Notes under the pieces: model-generated
What the model was told of the DNA's origin: nothing
Databases searched by the model: none
What the model saw: only the letters and a program-made list of their open reading frames with translations
Translations under genes and position numbers: made by a program
Shown: positions 5,967 through 14,048 of the stretch, one piece after another
Layout: each line of letters opens with the position of its first letter
Numbering within the stretch: position 1 is the first letter of the stretch
Virus record (IMG/VR): IMGVR_UViG_3300008116_000909
Location: 1-21,798 of that record
Source of the DNA: a virus
Length of the DNA stretch: 21,798 nucleotides
Direction: 5' to 3' (one strand)

Positions 5967-7082
5967 ATGGCTGTTAGAATTCAAATGCGTAGGGGTACAA
6001 CCACGCAATGGAATAACGCCGATCCAACACTTAATGAAGGTGAAATTGGATATAACACTACTCTTGGAGCCTTTAAAATTGGCGATGGTAGCACAATATG
6101 GTCTGAACTAGATTATTACCAAACAGCCGCTAGTATTACTCCTCAAGAAATTAATGCTATTGATATTTCTGAAAAAGGTGCAGCAAATGGTGTTGCAGAA
6201 CTTGATGCAAGTAAAGATGTTATAACAGCAAGTAAGGTTATTTTTGAAGGTGCTACTGCAGATGCATATGAAACATATATTCAAGTTGGAGCAGAGCCAG
6301 CAGTAGCAGATATAACTCTTACACTGCCAACTGTATCTGGTACATTAATATCTAGTGCAGATACAGGCACAGTAACTAATACAATGCTTGCAGGATCTAT
6401 TGCAAATGAAAAACTTACAAACTCTTCTATTACTATTAATGGTTCAGCAGTATCTCTTGGTGGCTCTATTACTCTGCCAGGGGACATTGAAGGTGTTACT
6501 GCAGGAACAGGATTAAGTGGTGGAGGTACAAGCGGTACCGTAACTCTTTCTATTGATACTACAATTACAGCAGATCTTTCTACGGCTCAAACATTAACGA
6601 ATAAAACATTAACAAGTCCTGCTATTGGAACATCGCTAACAACAGCAAGCACATCTTTTGATTTGTTAAACACTACAGCAACTACTATTAATCTTGGTGG
6701 TGCTGCTACAGTAATTTCAATTGGATCAACAAGCGGTACAACAACAGTAAATAATAATTTAACAATTACTGGCGACTTAACAGTAAATGGCACAACTACT
6801 ACTATTGATACCCAAACTCTACAGGTAGAAGATAAGAATGTTATTCTTGCCTATGGAAATACATCAGATGCAGGAGCAGATGGTGGCGGTATTACGTTGC
6901 TTGGTACTACAAATAAAACATTCAATTGGGTAGATGCAACAGATGCATGGACTTCTTCTGAACATATGAACTTAGCATCTGGAAAGTCTTATAAGATTAA
7001 TAATACTGCAATATCTGCAGCACTTCCTGCTTTAACATGGGGAGAAGTTAAAAACGGTAAGTCTGGTCTAGTAATTAGTTAG
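5967..7082 (+). CDS. Tail-fibre protein with Mtd-like N-terminal domain (371 aa)
   Basis: GGAGG at 5956-5960 supports ATG 5967. Residues 1-51 (RIQMRRGTTTQW, NPxL-type DPTLNEGEIGYN, FKIGDGSTIWSELDYY) match the small N-terminal domain found in the Bordetella phage major tropism determinant and many fibres. The middle shares about 75 residues of modules with the 862-residue fibre (LTNSSITINGSAVSLGG, TAQTLTNKTLTSP near residue 211). The last third has the cyanophage-type segment NLTITGDLTVNGTTTTIDTQ and LQVEDKNVILAYG, then GGGITLLGTTNKTFNWVDA. No lectin variable region or reverse transcriptase is present, so a diversity-generating system is not supported. A host-recognition fibre role is likely. 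Confidence 0.8.
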   Translation: MAVRIQMRRGTTTQWNNADPTLNEGEIGYNTTLGAFKIGDGSTIWSELDYYQTAASITPQEINAIDISEKGAANGVAELDASKDVITASKVIFEGATADAYETYIQVGAEPAVADITLTLPTVSGTLISSADTGTVTNTMLAGSIANEKLTNSSITINGSAVSLGGSITLPGDIEGVTAGTGLSGGGTSGTVTLSIDTTITADLSTAQTLTNKTLTSPAIGTSLTTASTSFDLLNTTATTINLGGAATVISIGSTSGTTTVNNNLTITGDLTVNGTTTTIDTQTLQVEDKNVILAYGNTSDAGADGGGITLLGTTNKTFNWVDATDAWTSSEHMNLASGKSYKINNTAISAALPALTWGEVKNGKSGLVIS

Positions 7083-7085
7083 ACT

Positions 7086-7209
7086 ACTTTACAAAAACAA
7101 AAGCACTAAACCTTAACTTTATATTTAAACTTTACAAAACAATTATAAATCAAGGTTTTTTGTAATAAAATTTTGTGCTATACTTGGAGTACTTTACAAT
7201 TTGTAAAGT
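7086..7209 (+). promoter_or_regulatory. Repeated ACTTTACAA sites and 19-bp palindromic operator upstream of nrdJ
   Basis: ACTTTACAA occurs directly three times, at 7086-7094, 7129-7137 and 7191-7199. The third copy is followed by T and the exact reverse complement TTGTAAAGT (7201-7209), forming a 19-bp palindrome. The palindrome starts seven bases after the -10 at 7179-7184, so it covers the expected transcription start. That is the usual place for a repressor operator; it could also fold at the mRNA 5' end. The half-site does not match the NrdR box as I know it. This accounts for most of the 163-base gap between genes. Confidence 0.6.
7176..7184 (+). promoter_or_regulatory. Extended -10 promoter of the nrdJ cassette
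   Basis: TGCTATACT has the TG extension shared with the other promoters of this window. The expected start is near 7191, leaving a leader of about 55 bases before ATG 7246. That leader is too short for a cobalamin riboswitch but includes the palindrome at 7191-7209. Confidence 0.7.
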
Positions 7210-7245
7210 TCTAATTATATTTTTAGTGAGAGGTTTTAATTTTAA

Positions 7246-9273
7246 ATGTCAGATGTATTTTCTTTTAGGCTTTTGGAAGAATTTGTTAACAAATATAAGG
7301 ATATTGAGCCTCCTTTTGGTTTTACCGACGCAGGTGGAAACTCATTAGGAGAGATAACCTTTATTCGTACTTATTCACGGGTTAAAGAAGACGGTACAAA
7401 AGAACGCTGGCATGAAGTATGTAAGCGTGTAATTGAAGGCATGTATTCAGTACAGAAAAATCACGCTAAAGAAAACAGACTTCCTTGGAATGATAATAAG
7501 GCTCAAAAATCTGCACAAGAAGCCTATGACCGTATGTTTAATCTTAAGTGGACTCCGCCAGGACGTGGGCTATGGGCTTTTGGTACCCCTATGACCATGG
7601 AGAGGCGCAATTCAGCAGCCTTACAGAACTGCGCTATGGTTTCTACTAGGGACATCGATAGAAACGATCCTGGTGCCCTTTTTGGCTGGGTTATGGATGC
7701 TCTAATGCTCGGGGTAGGAGTAGGATTTGACACCCTAGGTCAAGAAAAAGAAATGGAAATATATCCAAATCTTACTGAAGAAATAACATATGAAATACCA
7801 GATACAAGAGAAGGCTGGGTAGAGTCTGTAAGATTATTGTTAAACTCTTATTTAAAACAAAATCAGGCTAAAGTCATTTTTGATTATTCTAAGATTAGAC
7901 CAATGGGTGCACCAATTAAAGGTTTTGGTGGAACAGCATCTGGACCAGAGCCACTTATTAAATTACATGAAACTATTCGTAAAGTAATTGGAAATAGATC
8001 TGGTGAAACATTAGATTCTCGTGCAATTGTAGATATTATTAATCTTATTGGCACTTGTGTTGTAGCAGGAAATGTTCGTCGTTCTGCTACTCTTGCACTT
8101 GGCGCACCAGAAGATAAAGATTTTATTAATTTAAAAAACTCAGAGGTATTTCCTGATAGAAACTCATTTGATCCAGAAAATCCTGGATGGGCATGGATGA
8201 GCAATAATTCTATTGCTGCAGAAGTAGGAACAAAATATGAAGACTACGTTAATTTAATTGCAGACAATGGAGAGCCAGGTTTTATTTGGCTTGATGTTGC
8301 TCGTAATTATGGTCGTCTTGCAGATCCTGCAGATGGAAAAGATTATCGTGTAATGGGATTTAATCCATGTGCAGAACAACCATTAGAATCTTACGAACTT
8401 TGTACTTTGGTAGAGGTTCATTTAAATCGTCATGAATCTAAAGAAGATTTCTTGCGTACACTAAAGTTTGCATATCTATACGGTAAAGCAGTTACTCTTG
8501 TTCCAACACACTGGCAAATTACAAATGGAATTATGCAACGTAATCGCCGCATTGGAACATCGCTTACTGGAATTGCATCATTTGCAGATCAAAAGGGGCT
8601 ACCAGCAGTTCGTGAATGGATGGACGAAGGATATAAAACAATTCGTAAATATGATCACTCTTACTCTGAGTGGTTATGTGTTCGTGAATCAGTTCGTGTA
8701 ACAACAGTAAAGCCATCAGGGTCGGTATCTCTTTTGTCTGGAGCAACTCCAGGAGTTCACTGGGGTCCAGGAGGAAACTTCTTCCTTCGTGCAATTCGCT
8801 TTGGAAATCAAGACCCAATGATTAGTTTGTTCAAAGCAGCAGGGTATAAAATGGAAGCAGATCTAGTATCTGCTAATACAACTGTAGTATATTTCCCAGT
8901 ACATTCTGGACATGCAAGATCAGAGAAAGATGTAACATTATTTGAAAAGATTGGTCTTGCTGCTACTACTCAAAAGTATTGGTCTGATAATGGAGTTTCT
9001 GTTACCCTTTCATTTGACAAAGAAAAAGAAACAGAACATATTGCTCCAGCACTTCATATGTATGAAGGTCAGTTGAAGGCAGTATCATTTTTGCCTATGG
9101 GCAATAAAACATATCCACAGCAACCATATACTCAGATAACAAAAGATGAATATAACTCTTATGTTGGTGAGATTAAAAAAATTAATTGGTCTGCTATTTA
9201 TGACGGGGTAGATAATTTAGAAGCAGAAGGCGAAGCATACTGTACAACAGATACTTGTATGGTTAAAATTTAA
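7246..9273 (+). CDS. nrdJ: Adenosylcobalamin-dependent ribonucleoside-triphosphate reductase (class II)
   Basis: This 675-residue enzyme reduces ribonucleoside triphosphates to dNTPs using a radical generated from coenzyme B12. The key residues of the monomeric Lactobacillus-type family are all visible: Cys129 (NCA motif) and Cys386 as the redox pair, and N373-P-C375-A-E377 with Cys375 as the thiyl-radical site. Cys375 and Cys386 are 11 residues apart, as in the L. leichmannii enzyme (408/419). The C-terminal CTTDTC pair (Cys666, Cys671) passes electrons from thioredoxin. No ATP-cone is seen. The protein is somewhat shorter than the L. leichmannii enzyme (about 739). The start has only a weak GAGAGG about 12 bases upstream. 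It heads a four-gene cassette that also encodes the enzyme making its cofactor. GC content falls sharply near 7740 within the gene. Confidence 0.95.
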   Translation: MSDVFSFRLLEEFVNKYKDIEPPFGFTDAGGNSLGEITFIRTYSRVKEDGTKERWHEVCKRVIEGMYSVQKNHAKENRLPWNDNKAQKSAQEAYDRMFNLKWTPPGRGLWAFGTPMTMERRNSAALQNCAMVSTRDIDRNDPGALFGWVMDALMLGVGVGFDTLGQEKEMEIYPNLTEEITYEIPDTREGWVESVRLLLNSYLKQNQAKVIFDYSKIRPMGAPIKGFGGTASGPEPLIKLHETIRKVIGNRSGETLDSRAIVDIINLIGTCVVAGNVRRSATLALGAPEDKDFINLKNSEVFPDRNSFDPENPGWAWMSNNSIAAEVGTKYEDYVNLIADNGEPGFIWLDVARNYGRLADPADGKDYRVMGFNPCAEQPLESYELCTLVEVHLNRHESKEDFLRTLKFAYLYGKAVTLVPTHWQITNGIMQRNRRIGTSLTGIASFADQKGLPAVREWMDEGYKTIRKYDHSYSEWLCVRESVRVTTVKPSGSVSLLSGATPGVHWGPGGNFFLRAIRFGNQDPMISLFKAAGYKMEADLVSANTTVVYFPVHSGHARSEKDVTLFEKIGLAATTQKYWSDNGVSVTLSFDKEKETEHIAPALHMYEGQLKAVSFLPMGNKTYPQQPYTQITKDEYNSYVGEIKKINWSAIYDGVDNLEAEGEAYCTTDTCMVKI

Positions 9274-9284
9274 TAGGGGGTAAA

Positions 9285-9737
9285 ATGAAAAAAATATTTG
9301 CAATTGCAATAAGCATTGGTCTACTAATAGGTGGTATATCATTTATCACTACATATGAAAAAGGATGCGTTAATGTTTATGTTGATTATGGAACATTAGA
9401 TAATAAATCAAAACATACAACTTGTATAGGTGTTCACGATAAATCAAATGCTTTGACTATTTTAAAGAAAGCAAACTATAAAATACAGGGAACAATAAAA
9501 TATGGAGATGCAGTTGTATGTAGGGTTAATAATTTGCCAGATCCATCAGTTGAAACTTGTGAAACTATGCCACCAGCAGACGCATACTGGGCTGTAATAG
9601 TAAAGAAAAAACAAGTTGTGCCATTTCCTATTAATGAGTGGGGTTGGGCACAAAAAGGAATAAATGAAACATATCTATACGCTGGAGATTCTATCGGTCT
9701 TGTCTGGGCTGATAACGGAAAGGTTATATTTCCATGA
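9285..9737 (+). CDS. Membrane-anchored or secreted transcobalamin-C-like (DUF4430-type) protein, putative B12 capture
   Basis: AGGGGG at 9275-9280 precedes ATG 9285, 11 bases after nrdJ. Residues 1-23 are a KK-led hydrophobic helix, either a signal peptide or an anchor; no lipobox is present. The exported part has four cysteines (28, 47, 79, 92), enough for two disulfides. It shows the DUF4430 pattern: a SNALTILKKANY helix, VVCRVNNLPD, ADAYWAVIV, WGWAQKGI, and YLYAGDSIGLVW near the C-terminus. This domain is known from the C-terminal part of vertebrate B12 carriers (intrinsic factor, transcobalamin) and from bacterial surface proteins. Lying between a B12 enzyme and a B12 adenosyltransferase, it may bind cobalamin at the cell surface. 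Family resemblance is by eye; the function is a hypothesis. Confidence 0.65.
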   Translation: MKKIFAIAISIGLLIGGISFITTYEKGCVNVYVDYGTLDNKSKHTTCIGVHDKSNALTILKKANYKIQGTIKYGDAVVCRVNNLPDPSVETCETMPPADAYWAVIVKKKQVVPFPINEWGWAQKGINETYLYAGDSIGLVWADNGKVIFP

Positions 9738-9895
9738 AAGTTGCTTATAAAAAAATAGATAATATTATAGAGTTACCAGTAAAAAAACAAAACGATATAA
9801 CAAAAAATATTTTGCAACTAACAATAACTCTTGCTGCACTTTATATAGCCAATAAAATTGGTATTGATATTTGGCGATCTTTGACTGGACACTAA
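9734..9895 (+). CDS. Small single-helix membrane protein (53 aa), unknown function
   Basis: ATG 9734 overlaps the preceding stop as ATGA, and the TAA at 9893-9895 overlaps the next start as TAATG, so it is locked between two genes of the cassette. The protein has a Lys-rich N-terminal half (MKVAYKKIDNIIELPVKKQ) and one probable membrane helix at about residues 25-43 (ILQLTITLAALYIANKIGI), ending DIWRSLTGH. By the positive-inside rule the N-terminus should be cytoplasmic. Its tight coupling suggests work with the surface protein before it or the adenosyltransferase after it, for instance as a membrane tether. I recognise no family; a holin is possible but unsupported by context. Confidence 0.6.
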   Translation: MKVAYKKIDNIIELPVKKQNDITKNILQLTITLAALYIANKIGIDIWRSLTGH

Positions 9896-10389
9896 TGGTA
9901 CATTTAACTCGTATTTATACAAAAACAGGGGATGATGGAAAAACATCAACTGCTAACAATGAAAGAATAGATAAGGCTAGCGATTTAATAGAAGCAATCG
10001 GAGCAGTAGATGAAGCAAACTCTGCTATAGGTATGGCAAGTGAATTTTATAATGATATTATTGATAGAATACAAAACGACTTGTTTGACCTAGGAGCAGA
10101 ACTTTCTGGCGCTACAACAATAACAATATCTGAAGAAAGAATTGTTTACTTAGAAAATGTTATCGATGATTATAACGAATTCTTAGAACCACTACACTCA
10201 TTTGTACTACCTACTGGGTCATTGCATAACGCAAGAACCATAGTTAGAAGAGCAGAGCGTCAAGTGTGGAGGGTAGAAGGAATTAACCCAAATATTCCCA
10301 AGTATCTTAATAGGCTATCAGACCTACTATTTGTTATGGCAAGATACCACAATAAGGGTAATGAAAAGTTGTGGGTTCCTAAAAATTAA
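9895..10389 (+). CDS. pduO: PduO-type ATP:cob(I)alamin adenosyltransferase
   Basis: This enzyme transfers the adenosyl group of ATP to cob(I)alamin, making adenosylcobalamin, the cofactor that the class II reductase of this cassette requires. The 164-residue length fits the family. Visible motifs are RIYTKTGDDGKT at residues 6-17 (ATP site), GAVDEANSAIG at 36-46, FVLPTGSLHNARTIVRRAER at 103-122 with Arg118, Arg119 and Arg122, and YLNRLSDLLFVMAR at 137-150 with Asn139, Arg140 and Asp143. All belong to the conserved active-site set of the PduO/MMAB family. The start ATG 9895 overlaps the previous stop (TAATG); an in-frame TTG at 9871 lies inside the preceding gene and is rejected. The protein should act in the cytoplasm as a trimer. 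Confidence 0.93.
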   Translation: MVHLTRIYTKTGDDGKTSTANNERIDKASDLIEAIGAVDEANSAIGMASEFYNDIIDRIQNDLFDLGAELSGATTITISEERIVYLENVIDDYNEFLEPLHSFVLPTGSLHNARTIVRRAERQVWRVEGINPNIPKYLNRLSDLLFVMARYHNKGNEKLWVPKN

Positions 10390-10397
10390 ACCTTCCC

Positions 10398-10406
10398 TGC
10401 TATAAT
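10398..10406 (+). promoter_or_regulatory. Extended -10 promoter
   Basis: TGCTATAAT lies nine bases after the adenosyltransferase stop codon and ends 17 bases before ATG 10424. The short leader carries an AGGAGA ribosome-binding site (10415-10420) very close to the start. It separates the next gene from the B12 cassette in transcription. Confidence 0.7.
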
Positions 10407-10423
10407 AAGGTTATAGGAGAAAT

Positions 10424-11140
10424 ATGTCCATACCCTCTAATTTATATGCAGAAAAGATATATGCCGAGCAGCCACAAATTCTGTGGTCTTTAGATGATCA
10501 GGCTGATTATATTTCTCTAATTACAGAGGCACAAAGAGACATTTCTGACTCTTGGACATTAACAGACTGTACTGCTACAACATCAGGTATAGATTTAAAT
10601 CAACCATTTGAAGATAGTGTTTTAAATGCAATAGAGGGAGATGTTCCAGCAACCAGTTCTCTCACTATTCAGTGTGTTAGTGCAGACTTGGTTAATTTTA
10701 CAGATTTAAACTCTACCCTTGGATCTTTTAGTGTAGGTGCATATTTTTATTCAGACAGCGGGTATTTAAACCAGGTACAAATAGGATATGAATATACAGA
10801 TACAACTACATCTACAATTATTCAAGAACTAGAAACATTTAATACTTCTATATTTCAGGCATGGAGTTTTGTTTCTGGAACATTTGATATTCCTAATGAA
10901 AATACAGATCTTAGAGTTGTTATAAAATTTATATATACAGATGGTGGGTCAACTTCTTCTGATTATAGATTTTATGTTAATGGAATAAGTTTGGGTCAAT
11001 GGTCTGAAGAGTTTAATGCATGCCACTTCTCTTGGAGTTACTCCAATTGCTTTGCCATCAACAATTGCTTTAACTGTAGATGGTGCTGTACAAGCAGATC
11101 CTTACGGATTAGGTGGAGACACAGGATATTATTTAGTTGA
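10424..11140 (+). CDS. Large virion lectin-like protein, 5' part (broken by 4-bp duplication)
   Basis: The first about 197 residues are coherent: MSIPSNLYAEKIYAEQPQIL, WSLDDQADYISLI, then a beta-sandwich-like region (LGSFSVGAYFYSDSGY, FNTSIFQAWSFVSGTFDIPN, LRVVIKFIYTDG, YRFYVNGISLGQWSEEFN). From residue 198 the frame turns into a Cys/Trp-rich tail of about 40 residues that looks like shifted-frame noise and ends at 11140. The natural continuation is found in the +1 frame from 11016. Removing one copy of the tandem ATGC at 11016-11023 yields EEFN-ATSLGVTP and a single protein of 1206 residues. This part looks like the N-terminal attachment and carbohydrate-binding-like region of a large tail-associated protein. 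Confidence 0.7.
   Translation: MSIPSNLYAEKIYAEQPQILWSLDDQADYISLITEAQRDISDSWTLTDCTATTSGIDLNQPFEDSVLNAIEGDVPATSSLTIQCVSADLVNFTDLNSTLGSFSVGAYFYSDSGYLNQVQIGYEYTDTTTSTIIQELETFNTSIFQAWSFVSGTFDIPNENTDLRVVIKFIYTDGGSTSSDYRFYVNGISLGQWSEEFNACHFSWSYSNCFAINNCFNCRWCCTSRSLRIRWRHRILFS
11016..11023 (+). repeat. Tandem ATGC duplication causing a frameshift
   Basis: ATGC at 11016-11019 is repeated at 11020-11023. Deleting one copy joins the two halves of the lectin-like gene in one frame with a sensible junction (TTT AAT GCC ACT). It may be a real mutation, a strain polymorphism or an assembly error. Confidence 0.75.
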
Positions 11141-14048
11141 TAATAATGCTCTTGTTGCAAGAAATAGCGGAGTACCAATGGTATTTGGTGCAAGCGGTAT
11201 AACAAGACTTACTCCAAATAATGGCGGTAAGCCATCGTTAATATTACCTGGCGAAGGATTTTTAAATGAATTAGGAAAATATAAAGATTATACAATAGAG
11301 TTTTGGCTTCGTGTTAACTCGGATGCTTATACTCCAAGAAGAATATTTGGACCAATAGCATCATCAGATGGACTATATGTAGAGTCTGGATTTATAACTA
11401 TGGTCATTGGTAAACAGTTTGCTTCTCATTTTGTTGGTGAATGGTTTAGACCAATGCTTGTTCATTTTAGAATTATTAGAAATAACGCAACACTTTTAAT
11501 TAATGGTGAAGAAGTAATTAACCTTCCAATTGATACAGACAGCCTATCTTTACCAGCACAACTAGATAATACTGGAGATAGCCAAGACTGGATTGGATTT
11601 TATGCCTACGAAGATGTGTCTCCAATAGAAATAGATTGCGTTGCAATTTATCCATATTCTGTTGCAATCAACGTTGCTAAGCGTAGATGGGTATATGGTC
11701 AAGGAGTAGTTTCTCCAGAAGCAATTAACTCAGCATACGGAGGAACGCAAGCATTTATAGATTACCCATTTGCGGACTATACTGGAAACTATAACTATCC
11801 AGACTTTGCACAATGGGAACAGGGAAACTTTGATAATCTATCAACAACAAATACAGCATTAACAACTCCAGACTATCAACTACCAGATATATTTTTAAGT
11901 AGCAAGACTCTACAAGAACTTTATGACGATAATCAAGAAATTCAAGATCCACTCGATAGTACTTTTATAACCTTTAGACCAAATGTTGGATGGAATTCAG
12001 AAGACTGTTATTTTAACTTTCCAAGATTTAATATATTAAACGATGATATTCATACATTTTACGGAGTATTTAGTTCAGATGATCTATTAACAGAAGAAAC
12101 ACTATTTAAAGTATATAACAGACTTACAGGTAATTACTTTGCAATTCGTAAAGATTTAGATGAAATTCACTACTATTTATATTTTAATGGGGAAGAAGAA
12201 GAGATATATACAACAGACATAATTGTGTCTGATGAAAAATATGCTGCAGGAGTAAAGATTGATTTTTTGGTTTCTTTCTTTGGAGGAAATGTAGCGTCAT
12301 TCTTTGGAAATCGTAATGGGCTAGAGATGTATGTTGCAGGGGATGAAACAAATACTTATCAATTCACTGGCAAAGTATACTCAGTAGGTTTATGCACAGC
12401 ATATAATGCAACAGAAGTAGCAGATCATTTTGAAGAAAATGGAACAGCAATTCTGGATAGTTATCTAGCAACTGGGTCAGAAGAGTCTGAAAATGCTAAA
12501 GCGCTGCTTGCTCATACGGCAAGTTATACTCTTTTGCCATCAGAAGCATATGATACATATTTCTTAGATATCGGAGTTTCTGGGTATTGGGAAGACTACC
12601 TGCCTCTATCTTATTTTGCACAGTTTGTAACAAACGATGTTGGTAACACATATTATGATCTTGATTTCTTACAATATAATTTAGGATATCCATCTCCAAC
12701 TAAACTAAAAGAATATGAACAAGTAGGATCTTGGACATATGAAGAACTTAAAGAAGAGTATTCACATCCAGTTCAAGAAACATATTTGCAGTTAGACAAT
12801 AGCATATTTACTGGCTGGAACAACTATCAGGATATGGCTGAAAAGGCTATTAAATATTATGAGTATGATACAACAGATGCAGTAATTAGAAGTTATGTTA
12901 CCTTGCAGTATATTCAAGAAGGTGCAAACCAGCCTATATCAAACTTTACCAACTATGTTCCTCCAAAAGAAGATAAGATTATTAATATTGATGACTATCC
13001 AAATTGGCTTACTACAAAATTTGAAGTTGTTGATAATACATTAATTTATCCAACTAAAACTGTTGACTTTAATGATTTGGCAATTGTATATCATTTAAAC
13101 TTTAACATTCGTGGTATTTTGAGAAAGCCGATTCGTTTACGTAGACTAGAGTGGGCATCTCAGGCATTTAATGATAATTCATTTAATCCAGTTGGTACAA
13201 GATTTGGTGTTGATATGTTCCCATATACTCGTGCTGGTATTTATTATGATTACAAAGCGCAAAACCCTTTTAGTATTTATAAAGGAAGTACCCCATACCT
13301 TTATCTAAATAGAACATCTGGTGTAGAAGTTCGTGGAAGTTTTGATCCTTTTGTTTCTAGAGGATTGGCTATTCCAGTTAATCCAAATCTAGCAAGCAAC
13401 TATCGTGTTAGTGCTATGCAGATATGGATGAGATATGATCAAGAACAATTTCCTATAACTCCAACAGAAATATTTGAGGTAGTTTATAAGGGAGATACAA
13501 TTAAGTTTTATATTGTTGCGGATAATCCAGATGCCACTAGAGCCAGGGTATATGCAAAAAGTTTAACTACCGACCAACCATTTAATGGACTATCATATTT
13601 TATAAACGGATCTCTTGTTAGAGAACCAGTTTTTACAATAAAAGAATGGTCAGTTCTTGGAATAGCATTTGCATCAGCCCTTAATTTTGATTTATTTATT
13701 GGTGGCATTAATTTAACTGGTCCACTGGTTTATAATAATATTGCGTTTTATCAAGCAAATAATTTGCAACAGGTTCAAAGCACCCTCACCAGACCTTGGC
13801 TTAGAGTAGAATCTGACGGGGTAACAAACTTTGACTGGGAGTATTGGTTAAATAGTTTTACATGGGAGGGCGTACTAGTCATTGCCTCTACAGATATTTA
13901 TGGCGTAAGTCCAGCAGAAGTATACAAGACGTATATAGGAACTAATAAAATAATCATTGATGATGATGAAGGTATGATTTTTGATGCTGAAAAGATGAAA
14001 ATATACAATGACACAACATGGACTATTAGGGTGGGTTCAGCGGTATAA
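11016..14048 (+). CDS. Large virion lectin-like (LamG/concanavalin-type) protein, 3' part
   Basis: The 1010-residue frame carries the main body of the protein begun at 10424. Residues 28-60 (DPYGLGGDTGYYLVDNNALV, VPMVFGASGITRL) lead into a probable LamG/concanavalin-like domain at about 85-215: KYKDYTIEFWLRVNS, RRIFGPIASSDGLYV, MLVHFRIIRNNATLLINGE, DWIGFYAYED, IDCVAIYPYSV. A second such unit is suggested near 820-930 (MQIWMRYDQ, VYKGDTIKFYIV, FTIKEWSVLGIAF, LVYNNIAFYQ). The rest is Tyr/Asp/Asn-rich without named motifs. Independent initiation at ATG 11016 is conceivable (GAAGAG upstream), but a fused reading frame is more likely. It is probably a tail or fibre protein that binds surface glycans. 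Confidence 0.75.
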   Translation: MHATSLGVTPIALPSTIALTVDGAVQADPYGLGGDTGYYLVDNNALVARNSGVPMVFGASGITRLTPNNGGKPSLILPGEGFLNELGKYKDYTIEFWLRVNSDAYTPRRIFGPIASSDGLYVESGFITMVIGKQFASHFVGEWFRPMLVHFRIIRNNATLLINGEEVINLPIDTDSLSLPAQLDNTGDSQDWIGFYAYEDVSPIEIDCVAIYPYSVAINVAKRRWVYGQGVVSPEAINSAYGGTQAFIDYPFADYTGNYNYPDFAQWEQGNFDNLSTTNTALTTPDYQLPDIFLSSKTLQELYDDNQEIQDPLDSTFITFRPNVGWNSEDCYFNFPRFNILNDDIHTFYGVFSSDDLLTEETLFKVYNRLTGNYFAIRKDLDEIHYYLYFNGEEEEIYTTDIIVSDEKYAAGVKIDFLVSFFGGNVASFFGNRNGLEMYVAGDETNTYQFTGKVYSVGLCTAYNATEVADHFEENGTAILDSYLATGSEESENAKALLAHTASYTLLPSEAYDTYFLDIGVSGYWEDYLPLSYFAQFVTNDVGNTYYDLDFLQYNLGYPSPTKLKEYEQVGSWTYEELKEEYSHPVQETYLQLDNSIFTGWNNYQDMAEKAIKYYEYDTTDAVIRSYVTLQYIQEGANQPISNFTNYVPPKEDKIINIDDYPNWLTTKFEVVDNTLIYPTKTVDFNDLAIVYHLNFNIRGILRKPIRLRRLEWASQAFNDNSFNPVGTRFGVDMFPYTRAGIYYDYKAQNPFSIYKGSTPYLYLNRTSGVEVRGSFDPFVSRGLAIPVNPNLASNYRVSAMQIWMRYDQEQFPITPTEIFEVVYKGDTIKFYIVADNPDATRARVYAKSLTTDQPFNGLSYFINGSLVREPVFTIKEWSVLGIAFASALNFDLFIGGINLTGPLVYNNIAFYQANNLQQVQSTLTRPWLRVESDGVTNFDWEYWLNSFTWEGVLVIASTDIYGVSPAEVYKTYIGTNKIIIDDDEGMIFDAEKMKIYNDTTWTIRVGSAV

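Follow-up and report, generated by a model that had tools for sequence, protein, structure and literature searches.

Introduction

The closest described counterpart of the genes reported here is a cellular one: in Lactobacillus delbrueckii, a cluster with the order nrdJ-cbrS-cbrT-pduO includes a proven energy-coupling factor (ECF) transporter of vitamin B12 (cobalamin), ECF-CbrT (PMC5997447). BtuM is a solitary small B12 membrane protein that has no ECF module and in which a cysteine ligates the cobalt (PMC6072759). Among viruses, cobA-type genes have been listed as auxiliary metabolic genes (PMC11183165), and no B12 transporter gene is known from marine cyanobacteria or their phages (PMC6370689). 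Class II ribonucleotide reductases are widespread among phages, and it has been discussed that requiring a scarce vitamin puts these enzymes at a disadvantage. Here, we analyzed a virus record of 21.8 kb (IMG/VR IMGVR_UViG_3300008116_000909; the whole stretch of 21,798 nucleotides is called the window), in which a class II reductase gene (gene 1, nrdJ) is followed by three further genes (genes 2 to 4). We consider it likely that these three genes are a B12-supply module for the reductase, covering capture, hand-over and activation of the vitamin. A literature search for phage-encoded B12 uptake or adenosyltransferase genes revealed neither a description of this module nor a transcobalamin-like phage protein for B12 capture, in line with a previous sequence-only reading of the window, to which no such four-gene set was known from phages.

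Results

The four genes are all located on the plus strand, at 7246–9273 (gene 1, 675 amino acids), 9285–9737 (gene 2, 150 amino acids), 9734–9895 (gene 3, 53 amino acids) and 9895–10389 (gene 4, 164 amino acids). The reading frames and junctions proposed earlier were confirmed in the sequence, with a gap of 11 bases between genes 1 and 2, an ATGA overlap at 9734–9737 and a TAATG overlap at 9893–9897. The proposal of a promoter before the cassette and another after it was not confirmed: a sigma-70 scan of the region gave 9 sites, fewer than the 14.4 that shuffled sequences would yield. Scans of viral contigs yielded at least 600 relatives of gene 1, 163 of gene 4, and 54 of gene 2, with 200 for gene 2 in a later scan.

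The gene 1 product matched the ribonucleoside-triphosphate reductase (RTPR) family TIGR02505 at 374.6 bits, above the curated cut-off of 340.05, and also matched PF21995, PF17975 and phrog_367 (498 bits). It aligned in three stretches along the L. leichmannii RTPR (1l1l), with the catalytic and redox cysteines 129, 375, 386, 666 and 671 retained, and it contains the NPCxE motif. These matches agree with the earlier assignment of a class II reductase with all catalytic cysteines and identify gene 1, by its sequence, as a monomeric RTPR-type enzyme with predicted dependence on adenosylcobalamin (AdoCbl). Separately, the phage contigs L363, L364 and L365 were seen to carry one in-frame stop (TAA or TAG) inside an otherwise nearly full-length class II reductase match.

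The gene 4 product passed the cut-offs of both PF01923 (E 3.7e-48, 164.3 bits, cut-off 24) and TIGR00636 (E 3.2e-45, 153.9 bits, cut-off 108.45), and its best PDB match was the M. tuberculosis enzyme (2g2d/6wgs). It contains the motifs TRIYTKTGDDG, DEAN, ARTIVRRAER and YLNRLSDLLF, and the residues of the ATP and corrinoid site (D39, R114/R118/R119, N139, D143 and F146) were invariant when it was aligned to further phage copies and one from a cell. Its loops are shorter than those of cellular copies. The conserved Arg, Asn and Asp residues noted previously are thus present, and gene 4 is, as judged from these motifs, a PduO-type ATP:cob(I)alamin adenosyltransferase with predicted activity. Relatives of gene 4 formed two groups, a host-like group (L083, L096, L130 and L131; 60–76% identity to PduO from cells) and a derived group of phage copies to which that of the window belongs. 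The PduO entries known from phage records, which are fragments or prophage-like records (Listeria, Acinetobacter and similar), were set aside as lying outside the group of gene 4.

Sequence comparison did not connect gene 2 to a family of known function. No match was found in Pfam (E up to 1, including DUF4430, PF14478), in NCBIfam, in the PDB with phmmer, in 50,697 phage records, or to the SCO2322 family NF040672 at E up to 0.1 (cut-off 85), and only a marginal match to phrog_3787, a family with no assigned function, was obtained. A profile built from the 19-sequence alignment A1 gave few weak matches to unrelated PDB proteins (best E 0.002), built up from repeats, none of whose stretches was significant by itself. 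The alignment revealed four invariant cysteines (28, 47, 79 and 92), and the N-terminus carries a hydrophobic segment at residues 4–22 after MKK.

Fold comparison alone succeeded. With an AlphaFold2 model of gene 2 (pLDDT 83), the top 14 rows of a Foldseek search were all transcobalamin, intrinsic factor or the DUF4430-type protein RUMGNA_00854, with probability 1.0. A second comparison (VIA) gave Z scores of 10.8–11.6 for transcobalamin, intrinsic factor, haptocorrin and DUF4430, against 6.3 for the next fold; the best match had a Z score of 11.6 over 95 residues at 2.8 Å. The matched beta domain entry 5np4 holds bound cyanocobalamin. Because the model matches these structures, the previous description of gene 2 as DUF4430-like is right at the level of the fold and not at that of Pfam sequence. 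Gene 2 may encode a membrane-anchored, exported protein with an extracellular cobalamin-capture domain.

Gene 3, described earlier as a one-helix membrane protein between reductase and adenosyltransferase, indeed has a single predicted helix (residues 22–51) and ends in W-R-S-x-x-G-H. Across phages, its homologues have 41–56 amino acids, one helix and a near-invariant C-terminus, W-R-x-x-x-G-[H/C]; in alignment A3, W47 and R48 were invariant and G52 was almost so. Most sequences have a positively charged N-terminal side, which suggests an orientation with the N-terminus inside and the C-terminus outside. In that orientation, the conserved C-terminus would face the same side of the membrane as gene 2.

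To describe the cohesion of the module, we counted 81 distinct gene 2 sequences with enough downstream sequence. Gene 3 followed gene 2 in all 81 loci (78 called by the model, the other three showing the same C-terminus on inspection), and gene 4 was near gene 2 in 79. Gene 1 was adjacent to gene 2 in 52 of 69 non-truncated loci. Comparison with collinear relatives revealed an empty site: window positions 7030–9269 correspond to L203 5784–8024 and positions 10397–13570 to L203 8032–11189, with 7 bases in between, and the same empty site was found in L204, L206, L207, L208 and others. Since these relatives lack exactly 9270–10396, the unit consists of a core nrdJ and an accessory block of genes 2, 3 and 4, which is gained or lost as a whole.

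The module also occurs in other arrangements. In L086–L091, genes 2 and 3 lie behind a divergent reductase that is 28% identical to gene 1, and the enzyme of L086 matched RTPR best, with 290.8 bits, under the cut-off. Genes 2, 3 and 4 of L410 accompany a reductase that resembles the L086 type in length and N-terminus. The order nrdJ-pduO-gene 2-gene 3 was observed in L130, L131, L283–L285 and L291, with NrdH next in L130 and L131, and pduO-gene 2-gene 3 in L127. In seven loci (L082, L093, L094, L096, L097, L109 and L117) the module does not adjoin the reductase, a phrog_367 match encoded at another place of the same contig. The two of these reductases that were checked matched RTPR best (300.9 and 334.2 bits, somewhat under the cut-off).

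Cellular homologues of gene 2 were found by a genome scan in Aeromicrobium (L137 and L138; 37–38% identity), where they are the last gene of an operon encoding EcfT (PF02361), a duplicated ATPase and an S-component (PF12822). Both operons are preceded by a cobalamin riboswitch (40.9 and 38.3 bits). Gene 2 matches were present in 57 of 395 sampled genomes of the same class. In all nine further actinobacterial loci examined, EcfT, EcfA and EcfS adjoin gene 2, and none of these nine had a riboswitch at the gathering score.

The three strongest gene 2 matches (E 1e-47 to 1e-50) came from actinobacterial genomes of about 1.2 Mb with 41–44% GC in the local regions, consistent with Nanopelagicales. 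In these, gene 2 has no ECF neighbours, and an AdoCbl or Cobalamin riboswitch precedes it (59.7, 61.1 and 38.0 bits). It is followed by an open reading frame (ORF) of 53–56 amino acids with one helix, ending in WRLWGAC or WRYWGGHY. These ORFs were found by position, a whole-genome search with the gene 3 profile having missed them; a gene 3 model built from phage sequences only ranked them 1 to 3 of 384 (E 2.4e-5, 0.007 and 0.022). Thus gene 3, left anonymous in the sequence-only reading, is no filler; it accompanies gene 2 constantly, in putative hosts as well as in phages. All three genomes carry their own PduO, 55–58% identical to gene 4 over the matched segments. In two of them (G126 and G156), class II NrdJ was the only reductase detected, so that their synthesis of deoxynucleoside triphosphates (dNTPs) depends on B12.

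The third genome, G229, was observed to encode a class Ib nrdHIE besides NrdJ (L200, 2812–5581, minus strand), downstream of a second cobalamin riboswitch. This arrangement, found in a single one of the three host-like genomes, is likely to switch between the reductase classes according to B12. A weak CbiQ match in the same genome was judged by eye to be an FtsW/RodA-type protein.

The phage cassette itself has no cobalamin riboswitch: no Rfam match was obtained in positions 7000–10500 of the window up to E 1, so genes 2 and 3 do not stand behind one as they do in the host-like genomes, and none was found in eight related phage loci. A perfect 19-bp palindrome, ACTTTACAATTTGTAAAGT, is located upstream of nrdJ at 7191–7209 and is a possible operator. 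It is unlikely to be due to chance (0.05 matches expected with up to three mismatches) and is lineage-specific: of 197 nrdJ loci, just 2 have it ahead of the gene, that of the window and L214.

Upstream of the cassette lie genes for tail-fibre-like and structural proteins, and downstream of it genes for the portal, a head protease and structural proteins of the head type. In the window, the large gene that follows the module is divided between two frames (10424–11140 and 11016–14048); it is a single ORF of about 1,000–1,260 amino acids in the relatives L203, L228 and L262; the split is probably a frameshift or an assembly error in the record. A lysozyme-like SLT_3 protein with a signal-like N-terminus is encoded at 625–1179 on the minus strand, opposite to the structural genes.

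Discussion

These findings suggest that phages of small-genome freshwater actinobacteria make dNTPs through an AdoCbl-dependent reductase and that some of them carry behind it a portable module of three genes that probably supplies B12. The N-terminal helix of gene 2 would hold the protein outside the cytoplasmic membrane, where its transcobalamin-beta-like domain would capture cobalamin. Gene 3, its C-terminus probably also outside, would help to pass the corrinoid to a host membrane transporter, and gene 4 would adenosylate the imported cobalamin to provide the cofactor for gene 1 during infection. As the phage copies have no riboswitch, they should stay on where AdoCbl would shut the host copies off. 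The hosts are most likely of the Nanopelagicales type, judging from the strongest cellular matches. Ca. Planktophila has been reported to have B-vitamin dependencies, including one for B12, that partner organisms could meet (PMC7527133).

This sequence of capture, activation and use is well supported by the fold of gene 2, the riboswitch and ECF context of its cellular homologues, and the position of the module beside class II reductases. The sequence-only reading had gone further, proposing that the phage brings its own scavenging and activation path and so frees dNTP synthesis from the cofactor level of the host. The second part does not hold: no EcfT, EcfA or multi-helix S-component of a CbrT-type ECF transporter was found among the four genes, and a module that contains no transporter leaves the phage dependent on host uptake and on external B12.

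Several observations weigh against a dedicated supply of B12 to the reductase. Among the 74 nearest nrdJ loci that have room downstream, 72 lack the module; as these relatives, up to 96% identical, do without it, it is dispensable. Gene 4 occurs without genes 2 and 3 in L073–L079, no ECF (PF02361, PF12822) or BtuC-type (PF01032) component was detected in the three host-like genomes, and a fold match alone is no proof of the ligand of gene 2. Moreover, cargo unrelated to the module can occupy the position behind nrdJ. The earlier picture of a fixed four-gene cassette therefore fails for nrdJ, which mostly occurs without the others, and stands for genes 2, 3 and 4, which are not randomly combined and form a cohesive block beside class II reductases.

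The cargo found between nrdJ and the tail gene comprises a Trp-halogenase-like gene (L247, 2052–3242), a 2OG-Fe(II) oxygenase gene (L262, 8031–8552) and a gene of no assigned function (L267, 8041–8640), which suggests that this slot is a hot spot. The module may thus have entered it by chance and serve other B12 enzymes of the host, as the many nrdJ loci lacking it and the copies of genes 2, 3 and 4 located away from nrdJ would also allow. We nevertheless regard such hitch-hiking as quite unlikely, because the class II reductases next to the module belong to two or more divergent lineages and two gene orders occur, phages with a non-adjacent module often have a class II reductase elsewhere, and in the L130 clade it joins both nrdJ and NrdH.

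It is slightly less probable again that gene 2 binds a ligand other than cobalamin and that only gene 4 is tied to the reductase. The DUF4430 fold is beta-grasp-like and may serve several ligands, and the sequence profiles of gene 2 fall short of DUF4430 and transcobalamin; on the other hand, the homologues in Aeromicrobium and in the three host-like genomes are under the control of cobalamin riboswitches, and the matched domain binds cobalamin in the carriers, as in 5np4. Superinfection exclusion, in which genes 2 and 3 would mimic or cover a host surface protein for B12 capture that competing phages use as a receptor, is the least probable explanation. In its favour, phages of other bacteria are known to use B12 receptors, hosts carry a homologous surface pair, and gene 2, a protein of the surface type, diverges fast (54% identity where gene 4 has 90%). 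Against it, a B12-activating enzyme and class II reductases constantly accompany the pair, and an operon that holds two successive B12 functions is better suited to supply.

Beyond the supply of B12 to the reductase, genes 2 and 3 might form by themselves a minimal B12-uptake system of streamlined actinobacteria that works without ECF or BtuCDF, with the corrin held between the gene 2 domain and the gene 3 C-terminus, the terminal His or Cys coordinating cobalt, and the phage copy free of AdoCbl-riboswitch control. We regard this as unlikely; if true, it would be a previously undescribed system captured by phages. Portable capture and activation of B12 by phages would show that viruses manage cofactor supply beyond borrowing enzymes. 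The module also points to a B12-capture unit of two proteins that has gone unrecognised in bacteria which probably rank among the most abundant in fresh water.

Compared with known systems, gene 2 resembles in fold the beta domain of transcobalamin, intrinsic factor and haptocorrin as well as DUF4430. Unlike these carriers, it has no alpha domain, is predicted to be membrane-anchored and has no detectable similarity to the member sequences in Pfam and PDB. The Aeromicrobium ECF operon, possibly of the SCO2322 family (its gene 2 homologue matched NF040672 with E 0.026 and 14.9 bits, under the cut-off of 85), shares with the module a gene 2 homologue, there behind a cobalamin riboswitch, and differs in having EcfT, EcfA and EcfS, with no gene 3 noted. 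Mycobacterium phage Gaia and Actinomycetia phage DSL-LC01 (61% identity) have the same type of reductase as gene 1, with no PduO or transcobalamin-beta gene annotated within several kb of nrdJ. By analogy, the cobalt-ligating Cys of BtuM is a precedent for the His or Cys conserved at the end of gene 3; BtuM is of the multi-helix S-component type, and gene 3 has one helix. The L. delbrueckii cluster is alike in placing the class II reductase first, PduO last and B12-uptake genes in between; however, it is cellular, and its CbrT, an ECF S-component, acts together with an ECF module, whereas the phage set has a one-helix gene 3 and a transcobalamin-beta-like gene 2. As that cellular cluster was already known, the phage set is a new, phage-borne variant of it.

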